DNA of 64,000 nucleotides, taken from Halobellus rarus. GTDB taxonomy: Archaea > Halobacteriota > Halobacteria > Halobacteriales > Haloferacaceae. The DNA lies in NCBI RefSeq assembly GCF_024494595.1, contig NZ_JANHDI010000007.1, positions 1-64,000 on the forward strand, given 5' to 3'. The translations under genes and the position numbers were made by a program. A model generated the notes under the pieces. That model was not told the origin of the DNA, made no database searches, and saw nothing but the letters and a program-made list of their open reading frames with translations. Positions 5,509 to 24,607 of this stretch are shown here, piece by piece. Positions within the stretch are counted from its first letter, which is position 1. Each line of letters begins with the position of its first letter.

Positions 5509-5516
5509 TTTATATA
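5509..5516 (+). promoter_or_regulatory. TATA box of RNA candidate copy A
   Basis: TTTATATA on the plus strand, 29 nt before the first conserved RNA block (GTGACGTAAGCG). The same spacing is found at copy B (24449). The 17 bases after the TATA box are also similar in both copies. It points away from mutS, so mutS and the element are divergent. Confidence 0.65.
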
Positions 5517-5535
5517 CGAACGGGCGGCCAGCACC

Positions 5536-5656
5536 GACGTGACGTAAGCGAGACCCCGCGTCGGGCCGCGGTTGCTCGGCACGTCGGCGCGGGATCCGGG
5601 AACGGTCGCCAGTCGGGGAGGACTGGTGAGTGTCCCGAGCGGGTGCCGACTGTTCG
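5536..5656 (+). ncRNA. Candidate structured RNA, copy A
   Basis: A roughly 120-nt element that is repeated at 24476-24597. Visible structure: stem P1 pairs 5555-5563 with 5585-5593 (9 bp with one U-G). Hairpin P2 pairs 5597-5601 with 5633-5637 and 5609-5614 with 5621-5626 around an internal loop. TCGGCAC (5576-5582) inside the P1 loop pairs perfectly with GTGCCGA (5643-5649), which would make a pseudoknot. The boundaries are estimates: the 5' end comes from the TATA spacing and the 3' end from loss of similarity to copy B. I do not recognise a family; it lacks C/D boxes and a clear ACA box. RNA nature is inference from structure and promoter. Confidence 0.55.
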
Positions 5657-5806
5657 CCCCATCTCAGCCGAGCGCGCCGCGTCGTGACGGGTTCGGTGGT
5701 CGAGTAGGGCTGCCGGTGTCGTCCTCGGTGGCGTGAGAGAGCCGTCGGTGACGATTCGGCGGTCGAGGCGGGCCGTCGATGACGACAGCGATCGGCGATA
5801 CCGCCC

Positions 5807-24448: not shown

Positions 24449-24456
24449 TTTATATG
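24449..24456 (+). promoter_or_regulatory. TATA box of RNA candidate copy B
   Basis: TTTATATG on the plus strand, 29 nt before the conserved block CGTGACGTAAGCG (24478-24490), exactly as at copy A. Confidence 0.65.
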
Positions 24457-24475
24457 CGAACGAGCGGCCAGGCCC

Positions 24476-24597
24476 CCCGTGACGTAAGCGTCATCCCGCG
24501 TCGGGCCGCGGTTGCTCGGCACGTCGATGCGGGACGAGCGACCGGACCAGTCGGGCGCGGACTGGTCCGGTCGGATCGAGCAGGTGCCGACTGTCAG
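24476..24597 (+). ncRNA. Candidate structured RNA, copy B
   Basis: Paralogue of the element at 5536-5656. Stem P1 pairs 24495-24503 with 24525-24533. Relative to copy A the 3' strand differs at two positions, yet all nine pairs hold (one G-U, one U-A in place of G-C and U-G). Hairpin P2 is a perfect 14-bp stem, 24539-24552 with 24560-24573, 7-nt loop. TCGGCAC (24516-24522) pairs with GTGCCGA (24584-24590), the same pseudoknot as in copy A. It lies in the 276-bp gap between the DUF5808 start and the kae1-bud32 stop. Transcription from the plus strand is inferred from the TATA orientation; the ends are estimates. Confidence 0.55.
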
Positions 24598-24607
24598 CCC
24601 AGCAAAC

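Follow-up and report, generated by a model that had tools for sequence, protein, structure and literature searches.

The element that occurs twice in the window (the whole 64,000-nucleotide stretch of Halobellus rarus DNA analyzed here) belongs, judging by sequence comparison, to what is almost certainly a family of structured RNAs, encoded by small genes that extend across the class Halobacteria and for which we found no earlier description. Its members are predicted to contain, in order, a promoter, a mini-ORF at the predicted 5' end of the RNA (start, a single further codon, stop), a gap of 7–8 nt, a stem (P1), a pseudoknot, a variable arm and the tail CUGUUCGCC. We propose, with only slightly more belief than doubt, that each gene yields a leaderless RNA whose 5' end engages ribosomes and whose effect on translation is exerted in trans.

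Family size and distribution

The first-pass annotation of the window had recorded a pair of paralogous elements. A blastn search found about 40 copies in the window's own genome (best non-self match E = 1e-30), and the recurrence of the element is far above chance. A covariance model (R1) built from 38 copies of this genome returned 54 matches in it, of which 53 are convincing, and the pair noticed originally is two of these 53. A weak covariance-model match at C22:173734 was rejected, being a protein gene and not a family copy. R1 matches 190 of 292 Halobacteria genomes, and a class-wide covariance model (R2) matches 231 of 391, leaving 160 without a match; outside Halobacteria there was none among the matches listed for a phylum-wide sample of 295 genomes. 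The annotation had named a covariance-model search of haloarchaeal genomes as a check and the lack of further copies as grounds for refutation, and the many copies found remove those grounds.

Complete counts are 59 in H. limi and 17, 24, 16, 14 and 19 in five other complete or near-complete genomes, with two copies in every Haloferax genome sampled and about five in Haloarcula. The Halobellus relatives compared include H. limi (NZ_CP031312, G101) and H. clavatus (G100). High-GC members of the same GTDB genus carry many copies (10 to 59), and low-GC congeners (G005, G106 and G107, with 45–50% GC in the sampled stretches) have no detectable copy. The loci in Haloferax other than H. volcanii are the gap between a HAD-hydrolase gene and a gene starting MGFPVSYYCPHCGAVVEL, and a site beside a YcaO gene. 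At L096 (G324) and L098 (G203), both in Halobacteria, the copy lies between consecutive shikimate-pathway genes, chorismate synthase-like and EPSP synthase-like as assigned from protein sequence. Outside Halobellus the distance from TATA box to tail is about 108 nt and the predicted RNA is about 80 nt long; in Halobellus an inserted variable arm of 6–110 nt (40 copies) brings the predicted RNA to about 110–150 nt.

The two copies in the window

The features of both copies are collected in Table 1. Both are intergenic, as had been stated, copy A lying in the gap between mutS and nuoCD and copy B in that between a DUF5808 gene and kae1-bud32. Their identity is 84% for the promoter and the 5' part of the RNA, drops to 73% in the hairpin arm and is 83% in the 3' block, compared with 55–57% across 80 bp on each flank, which agrees with the original observation that the similarity stops at both ends. 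The identical run beginning at 5555 (CCCGCGTCGGGCCGCGGTTGCTCGGCACGTCG) was correctly placed, but it is 32 nt long (5555–5586) rather than 30, and the distance from the TATA box to the block GTGACGTAAGCG is indeed equal in the two copies, but it is 30 nt from TTTATAT rather than 29. Two base changes in the 3' strand of P1 distinguish copy B from copy A with pairing kept, again as described, and the 5' ends suggested near 5538 and 24478 fall one base from GTG triplets at 5539 and 24479, behind the conserved promoter.

Table 1. Positions of features of copies A and B in the window, and of leaderless-gene promoters with the motif GNRRCCA in genome G000
Feature	Position	Strand	Remark
Copy A	5509-5658	+	
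A, TATA box TTTATATA	5509-5516	+	kept in 40/40 aligned copies of the genome
A, downstream promoter element GCGGCCA (consensus GNRRCCA)	5524-5530	+	class-wide; also in leaderless protein-gene promoters
A, predicted RNA 5' end and mini-ORF GTG-ACG-TAA	5539-5547	+	third triplet a stop in nearly all members
A, P1 5' strand CCCGCGTCG	5555-5563	+	two-sided changes at 9/9 pairs class-wide
A, pseudoknot 5' strand TCGGCAC, in P1 loop	5576-5582	+	pairs with 5643-5649
A, P1 3' strand CGGCGCGGG	5585-5593	+	compensatory changes
A, variable hairpin arm (P2)	5594-5642	+	folds alone, z = -4.0
A, pseudoknot 3' strand GTGCCGA	5643-5649	+	pairing and covariation
A, conserved 3' tail CTGTTCGCC	5650-5658	+	near-invariant class-wide; homology ends here
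Copy B	24449-24599	+	
B, TATA box TTTATAT	24449-24455	+	alignment of the genome's copies
B, downstream promoter element GCGGCCA	24464-24470	+	motif common to leaderless protein genes
B, predicted RNA 5' end and mini-ORF GTG-ACG-TAA	24479-24487	+	orthologue L034 has GTG-ACG-TAG
B, P1 5' strand CCCGCGTCG	24495-24503	+	compensatory changes
B, pseudoknot 5' strand TCGGCAC	24516-24522	+	pairing in the genome's copies
B, P1 3' strand CGATGCGGG	24525-24533	+	two changes relative to copy A, pairing kept
B, variable hairpin arm (P2), 14-bp stem	24534-24583	+	folds alone, z = -5.8
B, pseudoknot 3' strand GTGCCGA	24584-24590	+	pairing in the genome's copies
B, 3' tail CTGTCAGCC (variant)	24591-24599	+	aligned copies
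GNRRCCA locus L313	C1:151467		
GNRRCCA locus L314	C11:429613		
GNRRCCA locus L316	C18:156584		
GNRRCCA locus L318	C22:46075		

Secondary structure

The predicted stem P1 has 9 bp and closes a loop of about 21 nt, in which GCGGCAC (TCGGCAC in Halobellus) would pair with GUGCCGC (GUGCCGA in Halobellus) at the 3' end of the RNA. The seven pairs of this pseudoknot can form in all 40 copies of the window's genome, with exchanges among U-A, C-G and U-G and between G-C and A-U. Class-wide, two-sided changes occur at 9/9 P1 pairs and at two pseudoknot pairs, and the covariation score is 0.432, compared with 0.144 for shuffled and 0.05–0.11 for slid partners. The members scored in this way had been picked by pairing. 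The pseudoknot was retested with the 89 matches (83 distinct members) of a model in which it was not built in as pairs. All seven pairs are present in 77 of the 83, and the individual pairs vary in composition: the first is GC in 54, CG in 12, AT in 8, TA in 5 and GT in 3, and the fourth is GC in 45, AT in 30 and CG in 2. The H. limi orthologue at the mutS locus likewise differs by a compensatory change from U-A to C-G.

P1 and the predicted pseudoknot are therefore well supported by comparative evidence. The first-pass annotation had recognized a structured RNA, and its P1 is upheld by compensatory changes, but the pseudoknot had escaped it. A short second helix, between GCGG in the loop and UCGC in the tail, is only putative, its near-invariance leaving no covariation by which to judge it. 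The Halobellus arms fold better than shuffled sequences on average (mean z = -1.7, 38 copies). Two copies on opposite strands 11 kb apart, L009 (G000 C2:82080) and L014 (C2:70947), have near-identical hairpin arms, a likeness that suggests recent duplication or gene conversion. A stop-codon read-through product was also considered but is not supported, as the stem changes compensate without coding constraint and the lengths vary freely.

Promoter and predicted leaderless start

In a leaderless haloarchaeal transcript the TATA box lies about 26–27 nt before the start codon, which is also the 5' end of the RNA. The family has a promoter of this type with this spacing, as protein genes do, although in the absence of RNA data the 5' end is inferred. 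The promoter TTYATNNNCGANNNNGNRRCCA is shared with genes outside the family: in the window's genome it also precedes ordinary genes, such as those of a phosphomannomutase-like protein (MELFGTAGIRG...) and a ParA-like protein (MLAIAGGKGGSGKTT...), in both of which the ATG has the same 30–31 nt spacing from the first base of the TATA box. Because these protein-gene ATGs share both promoter and distance, the GTG of the RNA occupies the position of a leaderless start. The original description of the elements as TATA-driven is borne out by the conservation of the promoter, but had overlooked that it is of the ordinary leaderless-gene type.

The motif GNRRCCA, located about 9–15 nt before the start, together with a TATA box also marks ordinary leaderless genes (L313, L314, L316 and L318; Table 1). 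A family-specific regulator binding GNRRCCA was among the candidates tried, and it is weakened by the presence of the motif before such genes. We saw no description of this promoter element in those parts of the haloarchaeal literature that were consulted.

In H. volcanii 72% of protein-coding transcripts are leaderless, and GUG is the start in only 6–9% of leaderless Haloferax mRNAs (PMC4983044) compared with 90% in the family. The same paper quotes one test in which a leaderless GUG was very weak, at 2.6% of AUG.

The start-stop mini-ORF

In nearly all members a GTG or ATG lies 30–31 nt from the first base of the TATA box, and a stop codon follows six bases on. Among 182 members chosen without regard to reading frame, the first triplet is GTG in 164 (90%) and ATG in 13, and the third is TGA in 127, TAG in 31 and TAA in 18, that is, a stop in 176. 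TGG is never found in the third triplet, although independence of the two purine columns would predict 22 cases; this expectation is an upper guide, the members being related and so not independent events. In a non-redundant set of 40 members, filtered to below 75% identity, the third triplet is a stop in 37. The remaining three read GTG-GAG-GAG-TGA (L254), ATG-TAA (L255) and ATG-CAG-TAG shifted one base later (L265), so that in each of the 40 a start is separated from a stop by 0–2 codons. The second codon is highly variable (ACG, ATC, ACC, CGC, CGT and others) and is lacking altogether in the start-stop members L113, L116 and L255, with forms that include ATG-TAA and ATG-TGA. The spacing between the stop and P1 is 7–8 nt in 156 of the 182, and, given the usual size of ribosomes, one holding the stop in the A site would just reach P1.

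The interchange of GTG and ATG, the use of three stops without TGG and the whole-codon length differences are all predicted by a reading frame; we know of no structural constraint that would predict such a codon pattern. We consider it very probable, on this comparative evidence, that the mini-ORF is under selection. The block GTGACGTAAGCG had been rightly noted as conserved, but its start codon, single codon and stop codon had been missed. Exceptions are few: the start is kept without a nearby stop in 4 of 220 candidates (L215 and L224 in Halopenitus, L233 in Natronomonas and L241 in Haloparvum), and the Halobellus copy L076 has GAG where the stop is expected. The four candidates retain promoter, start, stem and pseudoknot and could serve as natural stop-less test variants.

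Searches against known families

The element had been thought to match no known haloarchaeal RNA family, with a comparison to Rfam advised. Rfam 15 has no match for the family that reaches the curated gathering score and yields only tRNA-Thr in the window, and five family loci searched at E up to 5 gave only chance matches elsewhere. Archaeal C/D box sRNAs are recognized by a C box (RUGAUGA) and a D box (CUGA), together with internal C'/D' boxes, placed around a k-turn. Inspection of the aligned consensus by eye, without a dedicated C/D search, revealed no ordered C/D box pair; GUGAUCUGA resembles parts of these boxes but alternates with GUGACGUAG and GUGCGUUGA. Archaeal H/ACA sRNAs combine a hairpin containing a k-turn with an ACA that lies about 3 nt short of the 3' end, and the conserved 3' end of the family, also judged by eye and with the real end of the RNA not determined, is CUGUUCGCC instead of ACA. 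The broader idea of a structured RNA element with a TATA promoter outside the known families is thus supported by the compensatory changes, the lack of an Rfam match and the conserved promoter.

A supposed match of the tail to 23S rRNA was discarded, as it was not found in this draft genome and the tail varies as CUGUNNGCC. A viral or plasmid origin was likewise rejected: pattern matches in IMG/VR were all due to chance, phage records gave none, and matches in the plasmid collection were confined to H. limi itself. No description of the family was found in the literature, although only open-access papers were covered and a description elsewhere is possible; the conserved 3' sequence occurred in paper texts only in one unrelated human paper.

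Possible function

We hypothesize that the elements are small, stand-alone RNA genes, each with an ordinary haloarchaeal promoter, and that transcription begins exactly at the GUG (less often AUG) and yields a leaderless RNA. A ribosome would load on the leaderless start, read one codon and meet the stop 7–8 nt before the pseudoknot. The stop would hold the ribosome out of the pseudoknot, in which the RNA 3' end is tied into the P1 loop, and so keep that fold from being melted. The RNA could then act in trans on leaderless initiation or termination, either as a decoy or as a regulator, at a dosage set by copy number. Weighing against this reading are the few copies without a nearby stop, the weakness that leaderless GUG can show and the 160 genomes without a match. 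The family, its structure, its mini-ORF and its promoter type come from comparison among members, from which transcription, the 5' end and ribosome loading are inferred, and the effect on translation is a proposal. Functional engagement of ribosomes is reasonably likely, with binding inferred in the absence of ribosome-profiling or genetic data. Control of translation in trans is a more tentative suggestion, and none of the evidence found ties a particular target to the family. It is no more than possible that start-stop RNAs tune translation globally, each ribosome being loaded at the 5' end and terminated at once against the pseudoknot, which would make them a ribosome-level counterpart of 6S RNA in organisms that initiate mainly by the leaderless route.

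An alternative that seems unlikely to us but deserves attention is that the mini-ORF only protects, the ribosome at the 5' end shielding the RNA from 5'-3' decay while the pseudoknot body is the effector and binds a protein or a target RNA that has no connection with the ribosome. Unpaired positions in the body and tail are under strong conservation, and the two-codon minigene of axe-txe was proposed to guard mRNA from nuclease attack (PMC8708949). However, the constant gap of 7–8 nt between stop and stem suggests that the position of the ribosome relative to the pseudoknot matters and not occupancy alone, and no target or partner has been identified.

Genomic context and stability

Of 133 contexts, 98 have a convergent gene downstream, frequently one that ends within 40 nt, and 87 have a divergent gene upstream (genes were called heuristically and orthologues were not removed). 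In the window's genome alone, the downstream neighbor is convergent at 24 of 40 copies and the upstream neighbor divergent at 27; copies A and B each face a convergent gene. Because the downstream neighbor usually lies on the opposite strand, the RNA is not the leader of that gene, and a cis leader, riboswitch or upstream ORF was rejected. The same arrangement could indicate a transcription boundary in cis, with the element as terminator or insulator for the flanking genes and chiefly for the one converging on its 3' end; hairpins can terminate transcription in Haloferax (PMC7237163). We nevertheless regard a boundary as very improbable, since the bias is weak in the window's genome, other orientations exist, and a terminator needs no promoter, start-X-stop mini-ORF or compensating pseudoknot.

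The start-X-stop architecture is also that of tRNA-depleting two-codon minigenes, which act by repeated initiation and dipeptidyl-tRNA drop-off, as in phage lambda bar, and two-codon ORFs are the most toxic bacterial minigenes (PMC8708949). Such a role is quite implausible here: the second codon varies widely with no single tRNA preferred, some members have no second codon, the start is usually the weak GUG, and 53 expressed toxic minigenes would be costly.

The copies are stable, because the same neighbors recur across Halobellus species: copies occupy orthologous loci, such as mutS-nuoCD and DUF5808-kae1, in three of them, and conserved loci are also found in Haloferax and Haloarcula. By eye, no shared flank or target duplication was apparent in 40 aligned copies, and no transposase-family gene was seen adjoining the window copies. 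A non-autonomous mobile element of MITE or REP type would account for many dispersed copies, abrupt ends of the shared sequence and the arm common to L009 and L014, but it is scarcely credible given the loci shared across species, the lack of any apparent terminal repeat in the aligned ends, and the retention of promoter, mini-ORF and pseudoknot in every copy; the initial reservation that the repeat might prove to be a mobile-element end finds no support.

Our preferred reading, a leaderless RNA that engages ribosomes, concerns RNAs that are absent from Rfam although many haloarchaeal genomes carry between 2 and about 60 copies. If the mini-ORF is used, it would represent natural loading of ribosomes on an RNA without a protein product, in a group of hosts where most mRNAs are leaderless and the control of leaderless initiation is an open question. 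Haloferax, with only two copies, makes the family directly testable.

Comparison with known systems

To our knowledge, no analogue exists for start-stop RNAs that are leaderless, stand alone and form a dispersed family, although the predicted parts have analogues, in two-codon minigenes, minimum upstream ORFs and pseudoknotted sRNAs. Haloarchaeal TnpB-associated omega RNAs are compact, pseudoknotted and present in several copies, but they derive from a transposase-family gene, namely its 3' end, whereas the family copies stand alone with their own promoter. Plant AUG-stop minimum upstream ORFs (e.g., NIP5;1), in which the stop directly follows the start, are a conserved ribosome-handling signal. 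The members L113, L116 and L255 resemble them, but the plant ORFs control a protein-coding mRNA in cis, and the family has no downstream ORF.

Among known haloarchaeal RNAs, STRG.136887.1 is a conserved expressed intergenic RNA of 209 nt assigned to Halobellus limi in a halite metatranscriptome (PMC7002113); it comes from a species with 59 family copies, and sequence identity with the family is not established. In H. volcanii, ribosome-occupied intergenic sRNAs without coding potential were reported (PMC12482152). These are likewise haloarchaeal, intergenic and without a protein product, but they have not been shown to be family members, and the paper describes neither a family structure nor a mini-ORF.

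Two-codon minigenes (phage lambda bar and mg2 of axe-txe, PMC8708949) are bacterial and dependent on Shine-Dalgarno sequences, have no pseudoknot body and are not dispersed multi-copy RNA genes, and mg2 acts in cis on a downstream gene, unlike the family. The family nevertheless carries their sequence feature of a start, one sense codon and a stop, with translation only inferred, and such minigenes are thought to act through the ribosome itself rather than through the peptide, as may be the case here.
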